Assembly (NCBI RefSeq): GCF_020085105.1
Contig: NC_058052.1
Location: 15,595,233-15,659,232 of the forward strand
DNA: 64,000 nt
Direction: 5' to 3'
Source of the DNA: Siniperca chuatsi
Lineage: Eukaryota > Chordata > Actinopteri > Centrarchiformes > Sinipercidae
In this document: positions 7,993 through 36,765 of the stretch, piece after piece
Layout: each line of letters begins with the position of its first letter
Numbering within the stretch: the first letter of the stretch is position 1
The notes under the pieces: model-generated
The model's input: only the letters and a program-made list of their open reading frames with translations
Database searches by the model: none
Told to the model about the DNA's origin: nothing
Made by a program: the position numbers and the translations under genes

Positions 7993-10900
7993 TTAGTAGA
8001 CAAGCTTTTTGGGCATCTCCCAAGTAAACTCTGATCGGCCAAAGTGGCCATAAGAGGCTGTCACCTGGTAGATCGGCCTCTTCAGGTTCAGTTCCCTGGG
8101 GAGGATACAGAAGAAATGCAACATCAGAGGTGAGACTGTAAGCACATCACAGGATAACACCAGTGTTGTTGTTTTAATTCTATATATGTAGTTCTGGTTG
8201 TCCCTTTTTCGTTTGTTGTATTTCTGATTGGTTTCACATCAGCAGACAAAACCATTTGCAGGCATTCATTCTTGTACAGCATGGAAAATATATTTCTACG
8301 GACTTAAAAACTGAAAATTCATCAAAATTTAAACCCTTAAATGTGATTATTGTAATTTTATTTTTTAATAGTGTTTCTTCTTGTGATTTTATATCACCTG
8401 ACGTATAAATGAGGAAATTATCTTTCGAAAAAGTTGCGCCATGAACTTTTTTGTCATCTTAGTTAGTTGGGATGATGTTTAAATCAGTAACACGGGGGGT
8501 GGCGTCTACGGGGAACCTCATTTGGACAGACAGCCTTTTCTGTTCGGGGGATCAATATGTGGAACCCACAGAAGTGAAAATGTATCATGATGACCAGGAT
8601 CATTTTAAACTTTTTAAAGAGGGATCAGTCATGTAGCCATGAAGCATCTGGTGCTTGTCATTGAGTTTGATGATCATTTTATTGTATCTTTGCTTGTGTT
8701 TTGTGCTGTTCTGTATGTATTCTATTGTTGAGTTTTGTTTATTTTAAAGGCCCATCTAGTGACGGGCATTGCAAACTGGCTTAGCTTATAAATGCTGTGG
8801 CATGTGGCATTTGGTTCATGCTAAATACTTGTCCCTATACAAATAAACATGAAATAAATAAATAAATTCAAGGTTTATCAACTGAATGTTTATCTAATCT
8901 TTCCATCTGTAATTACATACAGACTTCACTGCAAAATAGCTGAGAAATGTAAATGTAGACAAAGACTACCATCTTAAAGCCACTGAGGGGAAACTCTTTC
9001 GTTACAGCTGCATTGACGTGATAGTGAGCAGCTGTAAAGAAAGAGTTTCCCCTTGGGGATCAATAAAGTATTTCTGATTCTGATTCTGATGTGTACAAAT
9101 GTCCAATTTTGGTGCCCCCTAGTGGTAATATAAAAAAAATGCACAGCTGCAGAAGAAAGCAGCGCGCAGACTTCACCAATTTTCACCAATTAGATTGTCT
9201 AATTTTTCCAGAAACAAAAACGTATGCCATCAGGCGAATCTGAAAGACTGTCTTGCATGTGGGGGATACAGAGTTCATATATTTGCATGTTTACCTGACA
9301 ATGACTCCTGGCCGCAGATCAAAGTTCTTGTTAACAATGTGGAGCAGCTCTGACTCTGTTCTCTGGGAGGAACCGTAGGTGAACAAGGAGATGGACAGAG
9401 GTTGGGCCACTCCGATAGCATAAGACACCTGTAACACACACAGACAGGTAGATAGAAATGTTTATATCAGCGCATGTTTATGCTTCAAACGCTGGTCAAT
9501 GAATGATTGAATGAAGCTGTACACTCACCTGAACCAGAACTCTCCTGCACAGTTTGGCTTTGACCAGAGACTTTGCCACCCAGCGAGCAGCATAGGCAGC
9601 GGAGCGGTCCACCTTTGAGAAGTCTTTGCCAGAGAAAGCTCCGCCCCCATGAGCTCCCCACCCTCCATATGTGTCTACAATGATCTTCCTGCCTGTCACA
9701 CCAGCATCACCCTGTTGGACAAAAAAAGGGGGGAAGATAAGCAAAAATCAGTGGTGACTTTTTAAGTTTTTTTTTTTGCTTTCTAGATGAAATAAGCAGT
9801 TAGCGTGTGATGGTCACCTGGGGTCCTCCAATGACGAAGCGACCACTAGGCTGGAGGTGGTAGATGGTCTTGTCGTCCAAATATTTAGCAGGAACCACGC
9901 CATTGATCACCTGATAGAATCGATGCAACATTAACACCAGAAGATATGACCTAATTTCCTGAGCAATACATTAGTCAGAGCCCAGTTAGGTGTGTTTGTG
10001 AGGATCTACCTTCTCCTTGAGGACCTTCTTCTGTTCCTCCAGCGAGATGCAGTCATCATGCTGCACAGAGATCACGATGGTGTGAACTCTCTTGGGGATC
10101 ACAGCTCCGTCCTTCTGGTCATAATGTACTGTCACCTGTGGGACAGACAGTTGGTACGCAATGTTGGAATTTGTCATAATTACTCACTTAATCTACAATT
10201 CTCTGTATTTTACTCTCATTTCCCTACAGGATGAGTTTCCTGCAATTGTATCTGTTTTCTTCTGAAGACTTTGAATGAAATTTCGGCCCGATATCTTATA
10301 ACATCCCAGAAAAAAAGTGTCTGTATCTGTAATAGTCTATGATTTATGAAGCTGCAGCTGGCCCCTTTTTTTCTGGTGTTGAGACCAGGTAATTACACAC
10401 TTTGTTAATTCATGAATACTTCTTTGGTGTAGTAAAAATGTGTGCTCAGTCCAATCCGGGATTAATCTAAAACTCTGTGTTCGAATACCTGGATGTTCTA
10501 ACAAACCTACGTTTGAACCGGGACACAATGGCATTAGACACTTAATGTCACAGAGTTGCAGTCAGCGGCTAACTGCCTCTAAATCAGTCAAAAGTCTATT
10601 ATTTCTACACAGAGAGCTTTATCTTAAATACTTGCAGTAGCCACTGTTGATCCGATTTTGTCTGCTGGCACCAAAATAAATCTCTTGGAAGACATCCAGA
10701 GTGGAAACAATAAAGTAATTCACAGAAAGACTGCTGTGGTGTTATAATACACAACCTCACCTGTGTTTTAGAGTCGGGACGCAGCCAGGGGATGGTGCCG
10801 GCGCGTCTGAGTTCAGCCATCTTTGCGTTGAGTTTGTGGGCTAAAACGATGGTGAGAGGCATGCACTCCTCTGTCTCATCTGTGGCGTAGCCGAACATCA

Positions 10901-19700: not shown

Positions 19701-22323
19701 TGTCTGCTGTATGATCGCTGCATGAATGGATGTACATAATCCTATAGGTAAAGAGGGAAACAGCAAATGTTTTAGATATATTCTAAAATGAATGTCATTG
19801 CTGCCACTCTACAGGCCTTCTCTGTATAGTATGAGTTCAATAGGCCGGTGTGAAGAGGTAGATGAAACCTACCTAGGACATGCTCTAGATAAAGTTTAAA
19901 GTTCAAGTCCTCCTGAACCTTCATCCTCAGTGGATGAAGAGTAAAATGATAAAGGCTTGAAGGCTTGTTTCAAATCTTTCACCTAATCATTTGACAATTA
20001 GAGTGAGCTCAGTCGATGTCCACCCAACGAGTATGTCAGAGGGCATGAAAGTCCTCTTTCTTTTTACGCATCATTCATGCTGATGTGACGTAATGACGTG
20101 CAGCTGAAACAAACTAAGTGAAAAAAACAGACAGACATTGTACATTCATCATTGAAATACTATAATTCCACAGTGTCTGACAGTATCGTATTGTACATAT
20201 TTTTATATTTTATGTCAATTTTCTATTTATGCTTCTTGACTTGCAGTACTTGCTTTATATGTTCTACTATGTTTATTGTTATGCACCAATATACCAAGGC
20301 AAATTCCTTGTATGTGAAAACTTCAGCATGATAAAAAGAAAATAAAAATACTACACACAAATGCAGAACAGTCTCTTCAACTTCTGTCTGATTGGCTACA
20401 TGAAATGTGTGTCATACTGACCCCCATTGCGTTTCAATTTAAAAGCCAGGGTTAGGGTTTTGGGGTTTGAGAGTCAGTCAGACTCAAACTTGACAGAACA
20501 GGATGAGATAAATGAACCCTCGTGGACTCGGGGGCCGTTAACAACTGTTTGTCTTTCCCCAGGTTCAAGGACACGCAGTTTACCTCCAGTAGCTCGTCTC
20601 TCCGTACTCTCAGCTTGTCCGGTCACCAACCAGTTTCATCTGGACGGCAGTCAGAATGAGTTGGATCTTACCAGTCATGAACTTTTATTGCATGGCTGAG
20701 AGATTGTGGAGTGATTGGTGTGGACAACTTGTTATATAAGGAATTACATAATGAACAGTAGATAATCTGTTTACTGTATGTTTATAGATATTTCTTTTTA
20801 TCAGTGTTATTGTTCTGTGTTTTTACAGACTTTTACAGACTTAGCTGGTTTTCTGTGTTAGGGCTTATTTCTTACTGTGTTCATTTTGTTGGGCGTCTTG
20901 TTTGTATTTATCTGAAGTTTTGGCCTGAAAGCTGTTTATAGCATTATCAGGCTGACGTTCAGCATTAGAGAAATATTAATATTGCCAATTTTCTTCACAC
21001 AAAGTTTTTTAAGTTCACTCAAAACAAAGCAATGGAAGTCTGTCTGTCGGCTTGAAACAGATCCAGAAGCAGATCTCGCTTCCCAAATTAACTAGGGCAG
21101 TAATTACTATCATGCTCACTGTCCTTTTACTACTACTAACTTTGCTCTCTGATTGGCTTCACTCGAACAATAAGAATCATGACATGTCAACCAATGCCTG
21201 CGAGTGACACCACACAGGAGGTGGGGTGCAAATCTTCAGCAGTGATTTGCTGTTGGTCCTGCACACTCCCCACTAGAGCAGCACTGGTCCAAGAAGAGAC
21301 TGTTCTGTATTTGTGTGTATGCTTACGTGTGTGTGTTTACATGTGTGTGTGTGCCCAATGAGAATACCAGTGGCAAAACAGTCTTACCAACCCAAGACCT
21401 CACTTAAACCTTTGAGCATTGTGATGTGTGAAATGTTTACAGTAAATTGACTCATACATTGATTATCTGATGCGTACGCCTCACTTTGTCATATAATTGC
21501 CATATAATTTGGGAAAAAATCCATTATGTTTTTTAGCAGATGACCTGAAATGGTTTACAGCAACAAAAACAAGAATCCAGGCTGACTCTATCACACACAG
21601 TCCAGCTTATGGCCGAGCAGAACAGCCAGAGGGAGTGTAGCAGCTGGGCTCATGGAGTGTCGTCCTATCCCAGCCCATTTTGGACCCTCAGCACATTCCT
21701 CTGTGAAGCTGCCACCAATGAGTGAAATATAACCATATATATACCATTCTAGCAATGCACTTTCATCACACATATTACGCATGAGCATGACAATGTTTTC
21801 ACTTCACTTGTCTACCAGTAATACCTTGTAGAAAAGTGTAATGAAAAAGCAATAATACTCTGACACGGAGTCAGAGAGGTAATGTAAATTCACCCCCTTC
21901 TGTTTTTATCAATGGTTCCTCTTATATAGCTTCTGTCTCCACTGGTGGTGGTTCTTAAAAGGGTCATAAAATAGAGACAGGATGTTTTTGAAGATGGACA
22001 CGATCTATGCAAAGCATTGTAATCCTGAAAAAAAGAATTGTCTCTTATATTGTTACAATCTATCTTCTTTGATTATGGAGGGAGTGCTCTCCTCGAGCTT
22101 TTAGAAAGACTGTAATACAAACTTTTCTAATATTCTTCTCTCCTTATGTCTGTAAATGAATGTGAACAAACCATTAGAAACAGCTCTCAATATCAGGGAA
22201 AAAGCATCCACTAATTAACTACATGTGGCCTCAAGACCATAGAGTTGAATCAACTTCTGCTTGACAAGTAAAACTGCTCATTTCAAGCTTCATAAAAAAG
22301 GAGTTTTTTTTTTAGGGCTGATG
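16800..22323. other. Gene-poor intergenic stretch
   Basis: No exon with recognisable homology was found. Notable items: unclassified sequence with 'ggggccccataaagga' and 'gaaggggccccctgag' at 17570-17860; a LINE-tail-like piece near 20190-20345; and a serine-rich open stretch behind a good acceptor at about 20562-20640 (see findings). The rest is AT-rich and featureless to me. Confidence 0.5.
20190..20345 (+). repeat. Non-LTR retrotransposon 3' tail remnant
   Basis: Contains 'tatgcaccaatataccaagg' followed by 'caaattccttgtatgtg' and an A-rich end, the kind of 3' tail seen on many fish L2/CR1-type elements. Family assignment is from memory only. Confidence 0.4.
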
Positions 22324-22332
22324 TATTGAATT
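22324..22332. repeat. Target-site duplication, left copy (TATTGAATT)
   Basis: Nine bases identical to 25660-25668, immediately flanking the LINE. Confidence 0.75.
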
Positions 22333-22498
22333 CCCCTCCTTGAACCGCCACCTTAACGTGGTGGAGGGGTTTGAGTACCCGAATGACCCTGGGAGCTATG
22401 TTGCCTGGGGCTGTATGCCCCTGGTAGGGTCACCCATGGCAAACAGGTCCAGGGTGACGGGTCAGACCAAGAGCGGTTCAGAAGACCCTTATGGATTA

Positions 22499-23740
22499 TT
22501 TAAAATCAAGGCCAGTTACGTCGCCCGGATTGGCGCTACCGGGGCCCCACCCTGGAGCCAGGCCTGGGGTGGGTGTCCGACGGCGAGCGCCTGGTGGCCG
22601 GTGACCCGGCCGGGCACAGCCCGAAGGAGCGACGTGGGGCCGTCCTCCCGTGGACCCACCACCCGCAGGAGGATCCGTAAGGGGCCGGTGCAGAGAGATC
22701 TGGGCGGCAGTCGAAGGCAGGGGCTTCGGCGACCAGATCTCCGGACACAGAAACTGGCTCTAGGGACATGGAATGTCACTTCGCTGGGGGGGAAGGAGCC
22801 TGAGCTTGTGCGGGAGGTTGAGCGTTACCGGCTAGATATAGTCGGCCTCGCCTCCACGCACAGCCTGGGCTCTGGAACCCGTCTCCTCGAGAGGGGCTGG
22901 ACGCTCCATTTCTCTGGCGTTGCCGGCGGGGAGAGGCGGCGGGCTGGTGTGGGCCTGCTCATAGCCCCACAGCTCAGCCGTCACGTGTTGGAGTTTACCC
23001 CAGCGAACGAGAGGGTCGCGTCCCTCCGCCTCCGGGTGGGGGACAGGTCTCTCACTGTTGTGGCGGCCTACGGGCCAAACAGCAGTGCAGAGTACCAGGC
23101 CTTCTTGGAGTCCCTGGGAGGGGTACTAGACAGTGCACCACCCGGGACTCCGTTGTTCTACTGGGGACTTCAACGCCCACGTGGGCAACGACAGTGACAC
23201 CTGGAGAGGGGTAATCGGAAGGAACGGCCCCTGATCTGAACCCGAGCGGTGTTCAGTTGTTGGACTTCTGTGCTAGTTACAGTTTGTCCATAACTAACAC
23301 CATGTTCAAGCACAAGGGTGTCCATCAGTGCACGTGGCACCAGGACACCCTAGGCCGGAGGTCGATGATCGACTTTGTTGTCGTATCATCTGACCTCCGC
23401 CGCGTGTCTTGGACACTCGGGTGAAGAGAGGGGCGGAGCTGTCAACCGATCACCACCTGGTGGTGAGTTGGATCCGCTGGCGGGGAGGAAGCCGGACAGA
23501 CTTGGCAGGCCCAAGCGTATCGTGAGGGTCTGCTGGGAACGCCTGGCGGGGCCTCTGTCAGCAGGGTGTACAACTCACACCTCCGGGAGAGCTTCTCCCA
23601 GATCCCGGGAGGTTGGGGACATTGAGTCCGAGTGGACCATGTTTTCCACCTCCATTGTCGATGCGGCGGCTCGTAGCTGTGGTCGCAAGGTTTCTGGTGC
23701 CTGTCGCGCGGCAATCCCCGAACACGGTGGTGGACGCCGG
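22499..23740 (+). pseudogene. LINE endonuclease domain, frameshifted
   Basis: A long open frame to 23197 contains LALGTWNVTSLGGKEPELVR (start of an exonuclease-endonuclease-phosphatase fold) and LTVVAAYGPNS. At about 23160-23166 one base is missing, so the expected YWGDFNAHVG motif is split between two frames. Further on IDFVVVSSDLR and STDHHLVVSW, the C-terminal endonuclease motifs with the last catalytic His, occur in other frames. The original start codon is unclear; initiation near the element's 5' end is likely. Confidence 0.75.
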
Positions 23741-23784
23741 AAGTAAGGGATGCCGTCAGGCTGAAGAAGGAGTCCTATCGGGCC

Positions 23785-25633
23785 TTGTTGGCTCGTGGGA
23801 CTCCCGAGGCAGCTGACAGGTACCGGCAGGCTAAGCGTGCTGCAGCCCGTGCGGTCACAGAGGCAAAAACTCAGGACTGGGAGAGGTTCGGAGAGGCCAT
23901 GGAGGAGGACTATCGGTCGGCCTCAAAGAAATTCTGGCAAACCGTCCGACGGCTCAGGAGGGGGAAGCAGTGCTTCACCAACACCTTGTACGGTGCGGGT
24001 GGAGAGCTGTTGACCTCGACTGGGGATGTTGTCGGACGGTGGAAGGAATACTTTGAGGATCTCCTCAATCCCGCTGTCACGCCTTCCGAAGAGGAAGCGG
24101 AGGCTGGGGACCGGAGGCGGACTCATCCATCACCCTGGCCGAAGTCACTGAGGTTGTTGGCAAGCTCCTTGGTGGCAAGGCTTCGGGGTGGATGAGATCC
24201 GTCCTGAGTATCTTAAGTCTCTGGATGTTGTGGGACTGTCTTGGCTGACACGTCTCTGCAACATCGCGTGGCGGTCTGGGACAGTGCCTCTGGACTGGCA
24301 GACCGGGTGGTGGTCCTCTGTATAAGAAGGGGGACCGGAGGGTGTGTTCCAATCACAGAGGGATCACACTTCTCAGCCTCCCGGTAAGGTCTATTCCAGG
24401 GTACTGGAGAGGAGAATTCGTCCGATAGTCGAACCTCGGATTCAGGAGGAGCAGAGTGGTTTTCGTCCCGGTCGTGGAACACTGGACCAGCTCTATACTC
24501 TCCATCGGGTGCTCGAGGGTTCATGGGAGTTTGCCCAACCAGTCCACATGTGCTTTGTGGATCTGGAGAAGGCATTCGACCGTGTGCCCGGGGCGCTTTG
24601 TGGGGAGTGCTCTGGGAGTATGGGGTCCGGGGCCCTTTGCTAAGGGCTGTCCGGTCCCTGTATAACCGAGCAGGAGCTGTGTTCGCATTGCCGGCAGTAA
24701 GTCAGACCTGTTCCCGGTGCATGTTGGACTCCGCCAGGGCTGCCCTTTGTCACCGGTTCTGTTCATAATTTATATGGACAGAATTTCTAGGCGCAGTCAG
24801 GGGCCGGAGGGTGTCCGGTTTGGGAACCACAGGATCTCATCTCTGCTGTTTGCAGATGATGTCGTTCTGATGGCTTCTTCAAACCAGGACCTGCAGCATG
24901 CACTGGGACGGTTTGCAGCCGAGTGTGAAGCAGCTGGGATGAGAATCAGCTCTTCCAAATCTGAGGCCATGGTTCTTGACCGGAAAAAGGTGGTTTGCTC
25001 TCTTCGCGTGGGTGGGGAGTCCTTGCCCCAAGTGGAGGAGTTTAAGTATCTCGGGTCTTGTTCACGAGTGAGGGACGGATGGAGCGTGAGATTGACAGGC
25101 GGATCGGTGCAGCGCCTGCAGTGATGCGGGCGCTGTATCGGACCGTTGTGGTAAAGAAGGAGCTGAGTCGAAAGACAAAGCTCTCGATTTACCGGTCAAT
25201 CTACGCCCCTGCCCTCACCTATGGTCATGAGCTTTGGGTAGTGACCGAAAGGACAAGATCGCGGATACAAGCGGCCGAAATGGGCTTCCTCCGCCGAGTG
25301 GCTGGGCGCTCCCTTAGAGATAGGGTGAGGAGCTCAGTCACACGGGGAGCTCGAGTAGAGCCGCTGCTCCTCCACGCCGAGAGGAGCCAGCTGAGGTGGC
25401 TAGGGCATCTGATCCGGATGCCTCCTGGACGCCCCCCTCGGGAGGTGTTCTGGGCATGTCCCACCGGGAGGCGGCCCCGGGGAAGACCCAGGACACGCTG
25501 GAGGGACTATGTCTCTCGGCTGGCCTGGGAACGCCTCGGGATCCCCCCGGAGGAGCTGGAGGAAGTGTCTGGGGCGAAGGAAGTCTGGGAGTCCCTGCTT
25601 AGACTGCTGCCCCCGCGACCCGGCCCCGGATAA
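23785..25633 (+). pseudogene. LINE reverse transcriptase, frameshifted
   Basis: Successive frames give SKKFWQTVRRLRRGKQ, then EEQSGFRPGRGTLDQLYTLH (RT motif 1/2 region), VDLEKAFDRVP (motif A with the first Asp), LRQGCPLSPVLFIIYMDRIS (motif B), and LLFADDVVLMASS at about 24846 (motif C, FADD intact), then VEEFKYLG. A missing base near 25054 shifts EFKYLG out of frame with the downstream FTSEGRMEREIDRRIG. The C-terminal part to 25633 is intact. At least three frameshifts separate the catalytic motifs, so no complete enzyme can be made. Confidence 0.85.
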
Positions 25634-27215: not shown

Positions 27216-28436
27216 ATGGTGACTGTGACTATGCTCCTGAAGGCGGTGAGCCTGTTTGTTGCAGAGTTCATCAGCTCCATCACAGACTGGTTCCAGACCA
27301 AACCAGCATGGGCCAACCTAGAAGTGCTGGAGGACACAGAACTGAAGACCACCGGAGGCGGTGAGTCAGAAAACAGAAACAAGCTGACATGCTGCACTTG
27401 GGCACTGCGAAGTTACATTCTTTTTAGTATTAAATTCCCTGTCTTTACAAATAACACCAATACATAAAGTTTTCGTGTCTGTATGACAAACTCTTAACTG
27501 GCTAAAACAGCGAGTGCATCATTCATAAGTGCCAAGATATTTAAAGGACTCCTTCATCTGAAGAATATGAGTCATACCTTATGAAGGAGAGTCAGTGACA
27601 TTTAGATTCAATAACGCTCCTCTGTCTCTTTCAGTCCATGAGCGACACAAGGCCAAATCTCTGTGGGAGAAGACTGGAGCTGTGGTCATGGTTGTACGGC
27701 GACCTGGATGATTATTGTGCAGAGAGGTATGAAATGACATGCCTGTACGTGTATCAGTAATGACAACTCTGCAGTCACCTAACTAGTAAATCTTCATTCA
27801 TGCTAACTGTTTCTCTCTGCCCTTCCCTCTCTAGGAGGCTGCCGAGCTGTCCTCTCTCAAGTCCCAGCTGCAGGACCTTGAAGTCCCTCTGTTTGCCGTG
27901 GTCAAAGAAAACCTTGGCAAGGAGCTGGACTGCTTCAAGAAGTACTTCTCTGGGAAGGTCTACGTGGATCAGAAGGTCTACTTTTGCAAAACCCTCCCCT
28001 ACACATGGCTTTAAGATATTAAGTGAAACATGGAGGGTTACAGAATTCAAGATAATAAGCTGCTTTTATATTATTCTCATAGAGAAATTTCTACGGCCCT
28101 CAATTGAGGTGGATGTTTCTCTCCATGTTTCTGCGTATTGGCGTGTGGAGGAACCTCTGGCGGGCCTACCGGAAGGGCTTCGGGGGAAACCTAAGAGGTG
28201 AAGGACTTGTCCTGGGTGGAGTCTTCGTCATTGGGCCTGGAGATCAGGTAGGCTGCAACTGACAGAATAAAAAAATTCTGACAAGCTTATCTGGACGTTT
28301 ACATGGGTTTTGAATGTGTTATTTTTCCCCCCAGGGTATTCTACTGGAGCACCGCGAGAAGGAGTTTGGGGATAAAGTGAATACGCTGGCAGTACTCAGA
28401 ACAGCCCGCAAAATGCGAGATGACATAGCAAGATAG
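27216..28436 (+). CDS. prxl2a: Selenoprotein U1 / PRXL2A, first tandem copy
   Basis: Five coding exons: 27216-27360, 27635-27726, 27835-27975, 28083-28247 and 28335-28436, total 645 nt (214 residues). The TGA at 27709-27711 is read as selenocysteine: VVRRPG-Sec-LLCREEAAEL, a U-x-x-C redox motif where mammalian PRXL2A (FAM213A, PAMM), from memory, has RRPGCFLCREEA. It belongs to the peroxiredoxin-like 2 family, thioredoxin fold. The C-terminus is strongly conserved: LGGVFVIGPGDQGILLEHRE. Residues 1-25 form a hydrophobic N-terminal segment (MLLKAVSLFVAEFISSITDW), a likely membrane anchor or signal. All introns are GT-AG and exon sizes 92, 141 and 165 are identical in the second copy. The SECIS lies at 28733-28801. 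A cytoplasmic or mitochondrial antioxidant role is inferred from the mammalian protein. Confidence 0.92.
27709..27711 (+). other. prxl2a: Selenocysteine codon (TGA), first copy
   Basis: In-frame TGA between CCT GGA and TTA TTG TGC. Flanking exons stay open, and the homologous site in the second copy is also TGA. Confidence 0.9.
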
Positions 28437-28732
28437 ACCTCAAAATGAATGGACTGTTAGTGTGGCATTATGTAATAATGGCTGTAGCATGTTTCCATTT
28501 GCACGGTCTGCATTCTTTAAACCTAAGCCAGGAGCTTTCTCTACCCAACAACATCTAACACTGTACTCTACTCATATTGCATTTGTTCCATTTGTAAATC
28601 TAATGTCATTCTGGATGCATTCAGTGTTTGCTGATATGTTATGCAATGTCACAACTCTGTGGTTAAAATGTGGCACTTTAACAGTTTATTGACCAACTGT
28701 CTGCATTTCTGGTCTTGGTTGTGTGATGGTCT

Positions 28733-28801
28733 TTTGTGTGTTTTAATGAAGATTTGTTTCTAAACTCTGCTGAGAGGACAGCTCTGATGCCAGCACGCAA
28801 A
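28733..28801 (+). promoter_or_regulatory. prxl2a: SECIS element, first copy (type 2)
   Basis: Helix I pairs tttgtgtg (28733-28740) with cacgcaaa (28794-28801), 8 bp including one G-T pair. The non-Watson-Crick core is ATGA at 28746-28749 and TGAT at 28785-28788. Helix II is 12 positions, then AAA at 28762-28764, then a mini-stem CTC/GAG around 'tgct', the layout of a type 2 SECIS. It lies 310 nt after the stop codon. The second gene carries a homologous element, which is strong support. Confidence 0.9.
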
Positions 28802-28897
28802 TCCAACACTTTAAACAAGACAGTCTTGGCCTGACATGAGGGAGATTGAACTGTTGGGAGTGATTAAACGCATTTTGTGTTTGTCATCTGATAAACC

Positions 28898-28903
28898 AAT
28901 AAA
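28898..28903 (+). terminator. prxl2a: Poly(A) signal, first selenoprotein U copy
   Basis: AATAAA about 100 nt after the SECIS, giving a compact 3' UTR of roughly 0.5 kb. Confidence 0.65.
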
Positions 28904-29058
28904 CCAGTCATGCTTACAGAAAGAGTATCTGCCTATTTACCTGCTCATGTGTCTTGTTTTGGCTTGTCTTGCGACTTACAAACATTCTTGTCAAAGTTAA
29001 AATCTTTCTTTGCCAGCCATCTTGCTCGATTAGTTTCCCTGCTCAGTGGAATGTTTAG

Positions 29059-29129
29059 TGCGCCTGCGCCGAGATCTGTTTACAAAACGCTTGGTGAGAG
29101 CGACGCTGTGTGTTGCTTCATTGATTCTG
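29059..29129 (+). promoter_or_regulatory. prxl2a: NRF1-like site and 5' exon of the second selenoprotein U gene
   Basis: TGCGCCTGCGCC at 29059-29070 differs by one base from the NRF1 palindrome (YGCGCAYGCGCR), in an otherwise AT-rich gap only about 150 bp after the first gene's poly(A) signal. It is followed by an exon ending ATTCTG|gtgagtg at 29129. It suggests a compact, probably housekeeping-type promoter for the second copy. The start site is inferred. Confidence 0.5.
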
Positions 29130-29587
29130 GTGAGTGTGCCTTTTTTAAAAACGTCTCCTTTAACTTTATATAACAGTGGCAGCATCTAAACAACAGGTGC
29201 ACCTGCTAGCTCTAGGCCCAGACTCAATAAACTAAAGACTAAACCTTTAGCCGAGCTAACAGATAATTTATCGACCGTTGCTACGACACTGTCGTCACTG
29301 TCTCTGTGCCGTCTGTGACTAGCAACAGTAACTTTGTAGGACACTGAAAGTATGTATTTATTATGTAATCATCACTCTAATATCTCAAAAATGCTAAAAT
29401 ATCCTAGTCCTACTCGGTTACAGTTTTAAGTGTAGCCTGTAGAGCCATTAGGTAATGTCATTGATTAGACATTGACAGTAACAACAAGGTCATTATCTGT
29501 ATAATTTGCTGTCTTCCTGCGGGCGGACAGGGCGGTTACTGGTTAAGATATTTCTGCCACCTCATCTTTACATGTAGGTTAAGTGTC

Positions 29588-30157
29588 AGCAGTGGAAGAA
29601 GTATTCAGAGCCTTTACTTAAGAAAAAAGTAGCAATGTCACAGGGTAAAAAAAAAATGAATGTGTTATTTTTTTTAAATGTAGGCTATTTATTCATTTTA
29701 TAATACAAAATATTAAACCAGAACAAACAGGAAATAATATATCACACAACTACACACAGTTGCCAGACTAATAATAAACAATAATAAAAATAACAGCACA
29801 TTAATGACAGGTACAAATCAAGTTAGGTAATATATTTACCTTTTTTCAGCTATTGATAAACAGCGAGTAAAGCAAGAAATGGATCAGTACTGATGCTGTG
29901 TTGAATTGTTGCAGAAAGAGTATTACAAATTGGGGTTTTAACATCTGATAAAAAACATTTACTTTGGAAAGATGGAGAAGCTTAATTATCAAAAGTTAAA
30001 GTAAAGTTCAGTATGCAGAAGGTCATGGAGTAAAAAGTACAATATTTCCCCTTGAAGTGTAGTGGAGAAGAAGTATAAAGTAGCATAAAACGGAGTAAAA
30101 TTAAGTAAAAGTTACTTTACACCACTAGACATAGTGTCTAGTGGTGTAAAGTAACTT
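29588..30157. mobile_element. Degenerate MITE with a hairpin terminus
   Basis: Left end 'cagtggaagaagtattcaga' and right end '..aagttactttacaccacta' are the termini of the MITE family seen at 15680. At the right end the terminal 23 bp are repeated as a perfect inverted copy (30109-30131 and 30135-30157, 3-nt spacer). It lies in the first intron of the second selenoprotein gene. Confidence 0.65.
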
Positions 30158-31009
30158 GTCCTAGCATCATCCAGGCATCTCATGAATATAATACAACTCT
30201 TGATTTATTAGATGTGTTCATCATTAACAAAGTATTGGGCAACACCACGTCATGTTTGCAGTACCAGTGTTGACAGCTCCTTTCACTCCTCGCTCTGCAG
30301 ACACATTCAAGGAACCTAGACTCTTCCTTGTGTTGCAGGCGTAGGCGTCTGTCCCTATTGGCTGCTGCTGTTATTTTTTTTCAGCCCTTTGTCCTCCCCA
30401 GTGATAAAGTGTCAGAACACAAATGCATTTGGCTGATTTAGTGTTTGACACTGGATGAGCTAAGTCCCGGGAGAAAAGATATTTCTTCGCATTTTGGAAA
30501 CAAGTTAGTATATAAAACAATTTTAGTTTTCAATTGGTTATAGACATAAGATAGATTTGATCCTTCTTAAACTTGAATTTCTCTGTGTAGCATATTGTAA
30601 ACTGATTTATATGTTTGTGTTTTCAGTGTAATTTATGTGTTGATGTGTTTAAACCACAAACAAGAGAGCTTAGGGTGCAAGAAAAGGAAGTTTCTTTGTA
30701 AATGGAGAACTGTTACACTCCAGTAAGATGATTAAAATCAAAACCACGCTTTGATCGTGCTTTACTTTCGGTATAACACAGTCTACAGGGTGGGTAATAA
30801 TTCTTAATAAGCAAATGTAACACCTGGCTAACAAGGTATAACATTTTGTCTGGGTAGTCTAAACATGAAGAATGATGCCTAGGTGTTTTTCTCTTAAATC
30901 TGTGAAGTCAATTGCAGGCTCCTTGAAAGTAGGGCTTGCAGTAGAGGTGGATTATACTGTCTTTGAAATGGTCTGTGGCATAGAAAGGACTTGTGTTTCT
31001 TTCTTTCAG

Positions 31010-31258
31010 TGATATCTTGAGGGTGTTTGTAGTCAGAGGGTCAGACTTTTGCCACGGTCCCGATGCTGGCTCTGTCCAGGTGTCCGACAGCTTTGAGGTG
31101 GAGACTATCCCTGCGTTGCTCTGCCCTCTCTTTGGGGAGCACTACCATGAGCAGCCAGCCCTCCACCGCAGCCAAGCCCCAGTTTCTAAGAACCCAGACT
31201 GCTCTGTTTCACCAAAGTAAAGCCAAAGCCAGCCCTGACCCAAACAAGCCCGCTTCAG
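31010..31258 (+). other. prxl2a: Upstream exon of second copy, possible N-terminal extension
   Basis: Acceptor tttctttcag at 31009; the exon has an ATG at 31063 opening a frame MLALSRCPTALRWRLSLRCS and so on to CCC GCT TCA G. The following bases are gcaagg, an excellent GC donor (CAG|GCAAGG). Joined to the acceptor at 31998 it stays in frame (G|TG TTG TCC TCT) with the conserved MGMWSLG exon. It would add 75 residues: many Arg/Lys, Ser and Leu and almost no acidic residues in the first 50, like a mitochondrial presequence. If not spliced this way the exon is 5' UTR or a separate small gene. Confidence 0.5.
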
Positions 31259-33914
31259 GCAAGGACATATCTGACTGCATACAGTTAGCTGTTCTACCCA
31301 AACTTCAAATGTGTTGTAGAAAATGTTACAGTTCTGACCTGTGCACAGTGTTTCCCTGCTTTCTGCCCACTTTGTGCTGGAATGACTCTAGACCTTCATG
31401 ACACTGAAGAGTGACAAAATAAATGAGTCATTTAATAATAATGATTTTATCATTTTTAAAATGTTTTGATAAGAGTCATGATTAAAGTTTGTAGTTTTAA
31501 CATTAACTCAGGACTGGAGTGTCATCTACTGCTGCTTGTTTGTCACCTTGGGCTTTTTTCCCCCACATTTTTCAGTATCTTCTGACCAAACAATTAATCA
31601 AGAAGATTAAGGCAGATTATTTGATAATGAAAATAACTGTTAGTTGCAGCCCTACATTACACTGCAAGATTTCCTAAAGAAAAAAAACTATTAAAATAAA
31701 TTAAAAAATTAATGAGGTTTAGATTAGAGTAAGGTGAGAAGAGGCTATGCTGGTAAGAAAAAAAAAGCACCACACTGACATGTTGATACAGCACTACGCT
31801 CAAACACAAGACAGAATCTGCAAGCTGGGTCTTGTTGGTCTCTTGGCCTCAGGGAGATCTGAGGTCTTTGTAAGAGAGAAAGTGTGTGTGTTTAGTCTGC
31901 AGTGCACAAGTAGCGAAAGAAATGTTCCTTTTGTATTATGACCATGTCAGACTTGTGACACATTTCTCTTCTCATGTTGCTGCCTTTTTGTGCTGCAGTG
32001 TTGTCCTCTGGGTCCGAGCTTGAGGGGATGGGGATGTGGTCGTTGGGTCTGGGCGCTGTCGGAGCTGCGCTAGCCGGGATCTTCCTGGCCAACACTGATC
32101 TGTGTCTGCCTAAAGTTGCCCAGGCATCGCTCGAGCACCTTGAAGATGCCGACCTGCGCTCCACCATAGACGGTAGGCAGGCTCTCTGATTGGCTGTTTA
32201 ATAATGTCACCGACCAATAAGCCTGTCTTAACACCAGCTGTTGTTAAACCCATTAGGAGGAGAATTTGCATTACATCAGCACAAGAATCAGCCATTTTCT
32301 TTACTGCTGCATGTTTGTATGCATTGTACATGCAGTGAATGAGGTTCTGTGTGGTATTTAAGGCAAAGCTGCTTTCTTAAATCTGCTGGTATTACAGATT
32401 AGATCATTGTAAAGGTCTTTGCCGAAGCTGAAGGTCAAGTTACTGGGTTACTGTTAAGCATATTCAACATATAGATGTTCCATGTGACTATGGACATCTA
32501 GCTTTTTCTCCATTTGAAGGCTGCATCTTTTATCTTCCACACTATGGCTTTATTGAATACTTAAAGCAGTAAAACACATTAAATCCATGTGACTTTCTTT
32601 GATCGGGAACATGTCAGATTGGAGCTTTGTTTTAGAAACAGTTTCTTCTTGTTTTGTCTGCAGATGGCAAGGTCATCAAAGCAAAGAGCCTGTGGGACAC
32701 GAACGGGGCTGTGGTCATGGCCGTACGACGACCCGGATGATTTTTGTGCAGAGAGGTGATGGAGAGGGTGTTACACATAACTCAGCATATGAAATAGTGT
32801 ATGTGGGTAATATTTTCCATGATGATGATATCTCTCTCCCTCTGTGCAGGAGGCCTCTGAGCTGTCCTCTCTGAAGCCCCAGCTGGACGAGCTCGGGGTC
32901 CCTCTGGTTGCTGTGGTGAAGGAGAACGTCGGCTCAGAGATCCAGGACTTCAGACCGCACTTTGCTGGGGAGATCTACATAGATGAACAGGTTAGCAGTG
33001 GTAGATAATATCAGATCTTCCAGATCTCATCCTCATGTATCTCAGCATCACACACTGATAATGACAACATGTCCCAAAACCTGGCAACTAACGAATACTT
33101 TCATTATCAATTAATCTGCATTATTGTATTGTATTTTCTTAGGCTTCTATGATAGAAAACATTCAGACAAATAGAAATTATTCACATTTGGGAAGCTCAA
33201 GCTATTAAACAATTAATTATTAAAATGGCCAGTAAATTGTCAATTGATTAACTTTCTGTCTATTAACATAAATTTTTAATGGTCCTTTTATGGGGAATAG
33301 GCTATTAAGTAGTTATTGCTGTAAAATAAAAATAAGTCAAATATCTTGAGAACTAGATTTTAAGCGATCCTTCTGCATTACTGTATTCATCTGCCAAGGG
33401 GCAATTTGGCAAATGAGGTGATAAAGCAATTTTGGCCGTTCAAACATTAGTAAAATAAATCCATCGCATTACAGAAAATCATTACATGGAATGAAAAACG
33501 ACATCCAGCTAATCCTTTCCTACATGATACATTTCTCTTGATTGGGCTGACTAAAACCAAACTAATGTGATTGTAGAAACACTTCTACGGCCCACTGCAG
33601 AGGAAGATGGGGGGTCTGGGGTTCATTCGCCTCGGAGTGTGGCAGAACTTCATGCGGGCCTGGAGGTCCGGTTACCAGGGCAACATGAACGGCGAGGGCT
33701 TCATCCTTGGCGGAGTGTTCGTCATCGGAGCGGGAGACCAGGTAGCGTAGCAAACATCTGGACTTAATGAAAGCTTTATAAAACATGTCTGTATTTTAAT
33801 TGTGTGTTGTGTTTGCAGGGGATTCTCCTGGAACACCGTGAGAAGGAGTTTGGCAATAAGGTGGAGATCGCAGATGTTTTAGAGGCTGTTAAGAAAATTG
33901 TACCAGTGAAATAA
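31063..33914 (+). CDS. prxl2a: Selenoprotein U1 / PRXL2A, second tandem copy
   Basis: Coding exons 31063-31258 (optional), 31999-32172, 32664-32755, 32850-32990, 33577-33741 and 33819-33914. Using the ATG at 32028 the product is 212 residues (MGMWSLGLGAVGAALAGIFL), the usual family length; with the upstream exon it is 287. The TGA at 32738-32740 is selenocysteine in AVRRPG-Sec-FLCREEASEL. It then continues KHFYGPLQRKMGG, FIRLGVWQNFMRAWRSG and GGVFVIGAGDQGILLEHRE, closer to mammalian PRXL2A than the first copy is. The N-terminal MGMWSLGLGAVGAALAGIFLA forms a hydrophobic helix. Exon sizes and phases equal those of the first copy, so the two arose by tandem duplication. The SECIS lies 1.95 kb after the stop. 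The role is predicted to be thiol redox control, as in the family. Confidence 0.92.
32738..32740 (+). other. prxl2a: Selenocysteine codon (TGA), second copy
   Basis: In-frame TGA between CCC GGA and TTT TTG TGC, at the same codon of the same 92-nt exon as in the first copy. Confidence 0.92.
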
Positions 33915-35863
33915 GTTTTTTTTTTTCCATAAAACAAATGCCATTAGACAAAGTTACAGTGTATTTAGATCAAAACTAGAATTGAAGAAATAATTAGCAT
34001 TTTTAACTTGACACATATTGAGTTGTAGTCAGAGTCTGTCCGTCACTGTTTGTGTTGTTTAATATCACTATATTGTCTGTCTTTTGCACATTAATTTACT
34101 GTTGGTTACAAAAATTTAGCTGTGAAATTCAGGACAGAGCCAATATTATTTCAGGATTTGTCACTGATTATTCCTCTTTACCTCTGCAGACACCTCAAAG
34201 CTAATTTATTTTGAGACGGGTATTAAAAACAGGTACTAAGGGACTTAAAGGCAGCACTTTCATTCAGGTACATCAACCATTACATTTAAGATCATTTGAA
34301 ATCTTCTGTTTAGAGAACCACATAACGCCATCTTGGAATTATAAGGTTCCATCTGCATGCTGAGCAGTTTTGAGATATTGAGCTTCAAAGTTTTTGCATT
34401 CCAAATAGCAAAAATTATATGTAGAATAAGTCTCTTTCACAAGTGAAAATGACAGACAACCTAAATGTATTCTAAATGCACAATATCACAAATCCTGTCA
34501 AATTTGTAAATGGGTTTTTTGGAACAGGTCAAATGTAGATAGAACCTTGTAATCCTAAGAACTCACGTTCTGCTTGGAATTAAAAGGTTCCATCTAGAAA
34601 ACATGAAAAGAAGCAATGATGAGGAACACAAACAGTTTGCTCATAATTAACAGTGTCTAAATGTATGAGAAAATTAATTTAATGCTTTCTGACATTTTTA
34701 TGACATTTATTTCTTCTTTTAGGACAAATTGTATTTTTCTTATTCAAAAAAAGCATTGCAGGTAACGTATAAAGGTCAGTGCTAAATATTTTGTCCAGTG
34801 TAAAGGTCAATTTTAGGTAGGAATATGGTTGGTTATTAAACACATTATTCTAGGAACCATTAGTTTAAGTTTCCTTTGGGTTAGAAAGCAAGCAGCTACT
34901 GTAATAAATCTAACCAGGACTTTATTCCACAGAAAGTGGTAAGGGAAAGTATAAGGATTTTCTTGATATTCTCTCTACAGATCAGTATAGCAGGTAAATA
35001 AAATGTTGCATTCATCTACTATAGGAATTGTCCCAGCAATTAAGTGTAACGGCAGTGTTAGGTTTTGTTTTATATCAGAAATGTTGACTCTGATGCACCA
35101 AAATGTTTTATTTTGGGGGGAAAGTAAAGGGAAAAAAATAGATGGATGAATAAAATGAGTGTTTATGTTGTAATTAAGACCCCATCAATTAAATGTAGAC
35201 TATTTAATGACCTTTAAGGCTTAATGTTTATCAAATTTAAGACATTTTAAGACTTTTTAAAGAACTGCAATACATGTGTTCATGTTTCACAAAGTTTTAT
35301 AAACTTAATACATTTTTTTTGAAGGACAGCAGTACAAATACCAGGCCAGTTCAGTCTTGCTGAGGAGATTATTTAGATTGTTAGCTAACATGCTAGCCAG
35401 CTAACGCTACCTACTAATGTTAGCATGAATGTTAGTCTGGCAGCTAATGCTAACATTAAGACGTAAGCACTAAAAGGATAGATTCATGTTATTTGAAGTC
35501 TATACCCTTTATTCCAGTCATGGGCAAAACCCCAAACCTATCCTTTAGCTATTAATGTTAGCATTATTTGCCAGACTAACATTAGGAAGCTAGCGTTAGC
35601 TAGCTAGCATGGTAGCTAACAATGAAAATAGTCACTGAGCAGTGCGGCAACATGACAAAGAAGCAGAACCTGATTGGTCCTCATTTTGGACAAAAATGTC
35701 AGATAGAAGCTTATAATTCCAAGGTGATGCATAAATCAAAGGCTGGATTACACATTTGATTAATTATTCTATTAACTCTTTCTGTGTTCTGTGTTATCTC
35801 TGTTTCCTTCTCCTGGCCAGGCACTTAAATGGGCCTCCAACATGGCAGACGAGTGTGTGTGTG
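33915..35863 (+). other. prxl2a: 3' UTR of second copy before the SECIS
   Basis: About 1.95 kb of AT-rich sequence without exons separates the stop codon from the SECIS. It contains two near-repeats of 'tggaatta.aaggttccatct' (34334 and 34576) and a large inverted repeat at 35377-35623. That it is continuous 3' UTR, rather than containing an intron, is inferred from the SECIS and poly(A) signals beyond it. Confidence 0.55.
35377..35623. repeat. Large imperfect inverted repeat (about 100-bp stem)
   Basis: Left arm 35377-35480 and right arm 35539-35623 are complementary over most of their length with two gaps of about 10 nt. Both are built of GCTAGC/GTTAGC words, and the loop is 58 nt. Matching ends are 'attgttagcta' and 'aaaggata' with their complements. 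It could be a MITE inserted in the UTR. Confidence 0.75.
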
Positions 35864-35872
35864 TGTGTGTGT
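35853..35872. repeat. GT microsatellite adjoining the SECIS
   Basis: About ten GT units; its 3' end forms the 5' strand of SECIS helix I. Confidence 0.85.
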
Positions 35873-35937
35873 TATAATGACAACTTGACTCTAAACTCAA
35901 CACTGAGAGGAGCAGGTTTGATGCTCAAACAGACATG
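35864..35937 (+). promoter_or_regulatory. prxl2a: SECIS element, second copy (type 2)
   Basis: Core ATGA at 35877-35880 and TGAT at 35919-35922. Helix II strand caacttgactct, unpaired AAA at 35893-35895, then mini-stem CTCA/TGAG around 'acac'. It aligns with the first copy's element over the whole core (shared TCTAAACTC, CTGAGAGGA, TGATGC). Helix I pairs 35864-35873 (GT repeat plus TT) with 35928-35937 with one G-G mismatch. Confidence 0.88.
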
Positions 35938-35980
35938 TTCTGCAACTGACGCCATGTTGAGGAGTGTTTGTGGTGCCTGT

Positions 35981-35982
<2 letters not shown>

Positions 35983-36028
<46 letters not shown>
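35983..36028. repeat. GT microsatellite in 3' UTR
   Basis: About 23 GT units between the SECIS and the poly(A) signals. Confidence 0.9.
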
Positions 36029-36035
<7 letters not shown>

Positions 36036-36072
36036 TTGTGTGTACCTGTACATGTGAATAATAGCTGCAGGA

Positions 36073-36091
36073 AATAAAAGCAATGAATAAA
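36073..36091 (+). terminator. prxl2a: Poly(A) signals of second selenoprotein U copy
   Basis: AATAAA at 36073-36078 and again at 36086-36091, about 150 nt after the SECIS. Confidence 0.65.
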
Positions 36092-36094
36092 GAA

Positions 36095-36765
36095 GACCTC
36101 ATCACCATAGCTTCATTGTGCTCCTGTGTGTTTAATTTCCTCTGTATGTTGGGGCAACACTTGACCATAACACAATTTACACGTGTTGGTGGTAGATTCT
36201 CAGCAGGAGCAAAATAACCAACTCTTGTGAATGTCTTTGTATTTCTAGCACAAAAAAACAAACCTAAAATATAAAACTGCAGTACTCTGTGTTCCTTTAT
36301 ACCACGGCCACAGAAAATTCTCAATTCTGATTGGCAGGCAGGTGTGGATTAATTTTTAGTAGCTGGACTGTATAACCACCTATGATGTGGATATTTGTTT
36401 GCTGTTTCAAATTAGTATGTAGGTTCTTTGCCTCCGCATCCTTCATTACAGTCATGGAACATACAACTTGTCTGGTATTATCCTTTATATATTTCATGCA
36501 TTTATATCAGATGGTAAACATTTGCACTCCAAATGATTAGGATGGACTACAGAACAAAGATGATTCTGCTTTAAAATGTTTAAAAAATAATAGACTTTTT
36601 CTTCTTATTTGTACAAGACAGCAGTCTGCCTTGGTCCAGTTTGTGTCAGATTAATGGAGGGTAGGTATACTTGTTGATGTGAAAAAACTTGTTCTTCTGG
36701 TCAATCTTCACTTTGATGAACAGAACAATAAACTCGATGAGCCTCAGTTGTCCTTACTTGAATAT
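36095..36765. other. Gap between convergent selenoprotein U and sfxn3 genes
   Basis: AT-rich; no exon or recognisable repeat seen. Confidence 0.5.

Follow-up and report, generated by a model that had tools for sequence, protein, structure and literature searches.

The window analysed here, a 64,000-nucleotide (nt) stretch of the Siniperca chuatsi genome (C11:15595233-15659232, in an assembly of 719 Mb and 65 contigs), carries two selenoprotein U1 (SelU1) genes, which lie head to tail on the same strand when their structures are rebuilt from the window sequence. Each has an in-frame TGA at the position of selenocysteine (Sec), and each is followed by a candidate selenocysteine insertion sequence (SECIS). 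We put the probability that both members of this tandem are functional selenoprotein U1 genes at about 0.9. The parts of the locus, in window coordinates, are these:

27216-28436, plus strand: gene 1 (SelU1b-like), from spliced translation, ending in TAG
27216-27360, 27635-27726, 27835-27975, 28083-28247 and 28335-28436, plus strand: coding exons of gene 1, from spliced translation
27709-27711, plus strand: TGA codon 74 of gene 1, putatively read as Sec; context VVRRPG-U-LLC
28736-28798, plus strand: SECIS of gene 1, form 2; RF00031 at 34.9 bits, E 0.0034; 299 nt past the stop; AATAAA at 28898
32028-33914, plus strand: gene 2 (SelU1a / PRXL2A-like), from spliced translation, ending in TAA
32028-32172, 32664-32755, 32850-32990, 33577-33741 and 33819-33914, plus strand: coding exons of gene 2, from spliced translation
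32738-32740, plus strand: TGA codon 74 of gene 2, putatively read as Sec; context AVRRPG-U-FLC
34326-35728, no strand assigned: repeat of about 1.4 kb (about 1403 bp) in the inferred 3' untranslated region of gene 2, with terminal inverted repeats at 34329-34355 and 35700-35726 and CATAA on both sides
35867-35934, plus strand: SECIS of gene 2, form 2; RF00031 at 33.9 bits, E 0.0063; 1952 nt past the stop; AATAAA at 36073 and 36086

The first four coding exons are equal in size in the two genes (145, 92, 141 and 165 nt), and the fifth has 102 nt in gene 1 and 96 nt in gene 2. GT-AG borders are found at all introns, and each reading frame is open except for its single TGA. A sequence-only reading of the window had described same-strand neighbours with matching exons of 92, 141 and 165 nt and a TGA at the same codon of a U-x-x-C motif. 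The rebuilt exons agree with it and extend the match to the first, 145-nt exon; the shared codon is number 74, and the positions that had been cited for it, 27711 and 32740, are the last bases of the two TGA codons.

The predicted proteins have 214 (gene 1) and 212 residues (gene 2), are identical at 114 of 212 aligned residues and share the motif G-U-x-L-C. Both match AhpC-TSA_2 (PF13911) far above its curated cut-off of 27 bits, gene 1 with 67.7 bits (E 1.5e-18) and gene 2 with 85 bits (E 6.1e-24), and the Sec position of both U-x-x-C motifs aligns with a Cys of the CxxC motif in PDB 9us9. Gene 2 is 64.5% identical to an unverified human PRXL2A sequence (136/211) and gene 1 53.5% (114/213), as against about 34% to PRXL2B. 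These figures, from a comparison that covered PRXL2A and PRXL2B, point tentatively to the SelU1 subfamily for both genes.

Gene 2 may have a further exon upstream, involving 31010-31258 and 31999-32027, with an AG acceptor before 31010 and a GC donor at 31259 (CAG|GCAAGG). An in-frame join of 31010-31258 to 31999 would give a putative N-terminal extension of 75 residues (MLALSRCPTALRWRLSLRC...) ahead of MGMWS, which has the look of a mitochondrial presequence.

The two SECIS candidates are the only matches to the Rfam model SECIS_1 (RF00031) with E of 1 or less on either strand of the whole window, E values being computed over 4227 Rfam families. Alignments and folds place in both of them, 3' of the stop codon, the ATGA/TGAT core, an AAA left unpaired and a small additional stem at the apex. 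An extra stem of this kind defines form 2 SECIS elements, and on these features we therefore assign both to form 2. Their cores align across 33 nt with 82% identity. The type 2 SECIS that the sequence-only reading had described after each gene, with alignable cores, were recovered. Against their being genuine weighs that the scores miss the Rfam curated gathering cut-off of 35 bits by 0.1 bits for gene 1 and 1.1 bits for gene 2, and a default run lists neither, as chance hairpins might behave. We take the scores as near misses because of their low E values and because the context fits, each element lying 3' of a TGA-bearing SelU1 gene. A loose ATGA..AAA..TGAT pattern occurs at 13 places in the window (9 and 4 on the two strands), and the bare motif is therefore no evidence by itself. 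A genome-wide SECIS_1 scan, in which 150 of 23198 first-look candidates were scored and whose count is a lower bound, returned at least seven matches with E of 10 or less, both window elements and one on contig C20 among them. Uniqueness in the window, position behind SelU1 genes and the genome-wide scan together make chance hairpins extremely improbable, and we rejected them. TG microsatellites flank the gene 2 element at 35850-35872 and 35983-36029; the first continues into its basal helix, on the 5' side, and GTGTG stands at the equivalent place in gene 1.

The distance between stop and SECIS in gene 2 is largely due to the repeat, without which it would be 549 nt and not 1952 nt. A search that scored 40 of 66 candidates matched it in 103 stretches, counting the query copy, that are spread over many contigs; the best other copy is 80% identical. 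The repeat is likely a DNA transposon, and the divergence of its other copies suggests that the insertion is old. Since the insertion looks old and the SECIS is intact, the long distance seems to be tolerated. Seven AATAAA/ATTAAA signals precede the SECIS of gene 2, of which six are inside the repeat, at 34579-35188.

The window pair has a counterpart elsewhere in the genome. A PF13911 scan found three matches, on C11, C20 and C5, and of the 15 stretches found in a search with gene 2 (E<=0.1), nine came from the window genes, five from C20 and one from C2. The C20 matches belong to a second pair:

C20:5736000-5745900, both copies on the same strand: SelU1 pair, an intact gene followed by a relic about 2 kb further on

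The upstream C20 gene is intact, with exons of 145, 92, 141 and 165 nt, TGA again at codon 74 and a SECIS of 39.3 bits, above the 35-bit cut-off, 317 nt past its stop. In the relic, exon 2 lacks the Sec region, exon 3 was not recognised, exon 4 carries a stop and exon 5 is present; the single SECIS match in C20:5736000-5745900 belongs to the intact gene, none being obtained at the relic. A hand-picked stretch at the relic resembles all three SECIS elements and was not used for deciding orthology. The head-to-tail arrangement, which the sequence-only reading had singled out as notable, is therefore real but not unique, as the same genome has a second tandem pair; its remark that duplicates often decay is borne out by the downstream C20 copy. 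By inference, the likely names are SelU1b for gene 1, SelU1a for gene 2 and SelU1c for the intact C20 gene. C2 carries a Cys-type relative (RRFGCQVCR), probably PRXL2B. The PF13911 match on C5 (C5:23584963-23585070) reaches 33 bits and is not found convincingly by tblastn with gene 1 or gene 2.

An argument for decoding of the TGA comes from the codons beyond it, which would be free to drift if the TGA were a real stop. Over codons 75-209, likelihood estimates of omega (dN/dS, the ratio of nonsynonymous to synonymous divergence) were 0.199 for gene 1-gene 2, 0.192 for gene 1-C20 gene and 0.153 for gene 2-C20 gene, and twice the log-likelihood difference from omega 1 was 31.4, 30.3 and 44.1, respectively, indicating constraint in all three pairs. 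For exon 1, dN/dS is saturated and without meaning in two of the three pairs (dS 56-62). The TGA is thus probably decoded in both genes. That one of them is instead a real stop, leaving a truncated or dying copy, finds a point in its favour in gene 2, where the repeat places six AATAAA/ATTAAA signals ahead of the SECIS. This is a slim prospect given the constraint in every pair, the splice sites, final stops and SECIS kept in both genes, and the C20 relic, which exemplifies what the decayed state looks like. The earlier view of both copies as SelU1-type genes with Sec codon and SECIS intact accords with the rebuilt genes and the SECIS matches. In established selenoprotein biology, SECIS elements act through SBP2, eEFSec and tRNA-Sec, and selenoproteins of this kind have a redox role. 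By analogy, the SECIS of each gene would recruit SBP2 and eEFSec so that UGA is recoded as Sec by tRNA-Sec, and the products would be peroxiredoxin-like 2 proteins of thioredoxin fold, with U-x-x-C as their redox motif.

The genes around the two pairs bear on how they are related. Three neighbours were located in the window:

about 10.7-12.4 kb, minus strand: MAT exons, from Pfam
within 42.5-45.7 kb, minus strand: sideroflexin (SFXN) exons, from Pfam
about 50-64 kb, plus strand: PDZD7-like gene (PDZ domain), from Pfam and from frame matches to C20

The PDZ genes on C11 and C20, which we call PDZD7-like, lie downstream of both SelU1 pairs, with a PDZ domain found on both contigs. Thirteen plus-strand frames of the window match the C20 PDZD7-like stretch in unchanged order. 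On the two contigs the SelU1 pair and the PDZD7-like gene also agree in order and strand. Upstream, the neighbours are MAT before the C11 pair and a Dpy-30-motif gene about 5 kb before the C20 pair, which therefore sits between this gene and the second PDZD7-like gene. Six-frame Pfam scans of 11.8-16.8, 16.8-21.8 and 36.1-41.1 kb of the window, the rest of which was scanned in part, gave only two MAT exons and no Dpy-30 gene. On human 10q, MAT1A, DYDC1/2 and PRXL2A lie side by side. C20 copies of MAT and SFXN lie at 3.85 and 7.66 Mb, megabases from the SelU1 pair. The SelU1 and PDZD7-like genes are the main ground on which we tentatively trace the C11 and C20 segments to the teleost genome duplication. 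Elsewhere in the window, a GC-rich stretch resembling a long interspersed nuclear element lies just before gene 1 (22322-25630; RVT_1 match of 67.5 bits within 24666-25121), and a Frag1/DRAM/Sfk1-family match (PF10277) on the plus strand at 2241-2669 reaches 31.1 bits against a cut-off of 30.3. Weak mir-3688 scores on both strands of 8980-9058 (33.6 of 84 bits) probably reflect an inverted-repeat element, and a similar stretch occurs on C20 near the PDZD7-like region.

The fish copies were named SelU1a, SelU1b and SelU1c in 2012 (PMC3316567), which bears out the remark in the sequence-only reading that extra SelU1 copies had been described in some fish. That paper traces SelU1c to the genome duplication and SelU1b to a duplication of SelU1 in Percomorpha, where it is found and not in zebrafish; it also has Cys in place of Sec in stickleback, and a loss in medaka. 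Our data lean somewhat towards an older origin, in which the SelU1 tandem duplication took place before, or together with, the teleost whole-genome duplication. C11 would then have retained both tandem copies as Sec genes, and C20 the upstream one, which is probably SelU1c of the literature, while the downstream copy decayed. By a similarly narrow preference, SelU1b (C11 upstream) and SelU1c (C20) would be ohnologues, as would SelU1a and the C20 relic, the tandem would pre-date the teleost duplication and SelU1b would not, as published, have a percomorph-specific origin.

Synonymous divergence is the first line of evidence for this order of events. Likelihood dS was 1.91 for gene 1-gene 2, 1.70 for gene 1-C20 gene and 1.92 for gene 2-C20 gene, and after the TGA 1.65, 1.49 and 1.45, respectively; the PDZD7-like genes of C11 and C20 gave 1.81 (255 codons). 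The counting method NG86 (Nei-Gojobori) gave dN 0.39 and dS 1.30 for the window pair, and the likelihood estimates were used instead. Because dS between gene 1 and gene 2 resembles that between C11 and C20, the tandem neighbours appear as diverged as the chromosome copies. The second line is a quartet of gene 1, gene 2, the C20 upstream gene and the C20 relic (104 shared residues), in which the tree (gene 1, C20 upstream)(gene 2, C20 relic) was best in four of four models, its rivals having p values of 0.019-0.049 in the approximately unbiased (AU) test. Full-length quartets with the unverified human PRXL2A prefer the same pairing. Long-branch attraction would favour another tree, as gene 1 and the C20 relic are the long branches. 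With the human outgroup gene 1 is faster than gene 2 (39 v 17 unique differences, chi-square 8.6), and with the C20 gene as outgroup it shows no excess (26 v 21, chi-square 0.5).

Several observations weigh against such an early origin. The dS values, near 2, are close to saturation. In the Shimodaira-Hasegawa (SH) test the rival quartets had p of 0.037-0.062, below 0.05 in one of four models, and informative residues in the relic quartet number only seven, divided 4 v 2 v 1 (5 v 4 v 1 with the unverified human PRXL2A). Gene 1 and gene 2 as sisters are kept by the full-length human quartets at AU 0.20-0.24, and are not rejected in a six-taxon set with PRXL2A and PRXL2B added (AU 0.05-0.09). 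Rooting with human PRXL2A and PRXL2B over eight topologies and two models left five near the best (AU 0.19 or more), put two that unite gene 1 with gene 2 lower without rejecting them (0.05-0.09), and rejected one. The best-scoring other copies of MAT and SFXN are on C5 and C8, not C20, and the C20 copies of these genes therefore add no weight to the correspondence. Finally, an origin before the genome duplication requires loss of SelU1b in zebrafish, given the distribution in PMC3316567.

That distribution, and the sister relationship allowed by the full-length quartets, speak for the published view, a lineage-specific tandem duplication of SelU1a giving gene 1, with a separate tandem on C20. 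We rate it as a serious contender, a little short of an even chance. It requires that a same-strand tandem duplication happened twice, independently, at corresponding loci, leaves gene 1-gene 2 dS as large as that between the C11 and C20 copies, and is narrowly rejected by AU once the relic is included (0.020-0.049), though the SH values are less decisive.

The teleost genome duplication took place about 300 million years ago. If the tandem is older than that event, two Sec genes have been kept side by side at one locus ever since, one of them with its SECIS displaced over 1.4 kb by a likely transposon. The family and this kind of pair are already known, and what may be new is a history older than the published one; should this order of events hold, the history of fish SelU1 copies needs redrawing. 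On the open question of which selenoprotein duplicates retain Sec and which are lost to decay, one genome here displays both fates at apparently one ancestral locus, where three Sec genes are intact and a fourth copy is a relic. Gene 2 is, in addition, a natural experiment on the distance over which a SECIS may move, and on the number of poly(A)-like signals that may precede it, without loss of Sec.

Among known systems, the closest are fish SelU1a, SelU1b and SelU1c, likewise Sec-containing SelU1 genes with UGA and SECIS and up to three copies in percomorphs, and the three intact genes found here fit that set as given in the available text of PMC3316567. Different from it is the relic on a second chromosome; the same text gives neither such a relic nor the positions of SelU1a and SelU1b. 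Mammalian PRXL2A (C10orf58) belongs to the same family and, according to PMC2397514, has Cys at the Sec position except in platypus, whereas the window genes have a putative Sec. The nearest solved structure is prostamide/prostaglandin F synthase (SelU3/PRXL2B; PDB 9us9), with E of 8.2e-20 for gene 2 and 1e-14 for gene 1, and the two entries found among solved relatives are both this enzyme. It is a Cys protein of a different subfamily, about 34% identical, with CxxC where SelU1 has UxxC. Clustered SelU genes also occur in sponge (SelU3_b and SelU3_c), where, according to PMC3473315, one copy of the cluster is incomplete and has no SECIS; in this it resembles the C20 relic and differs from the window pair. 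Zebrafish SelW2a and SelW2b, from another family and considered zebrafish-specific in PMC3316567, are tandem selenoprotein genes that have both kept Sec, as the window pair appears to have done.

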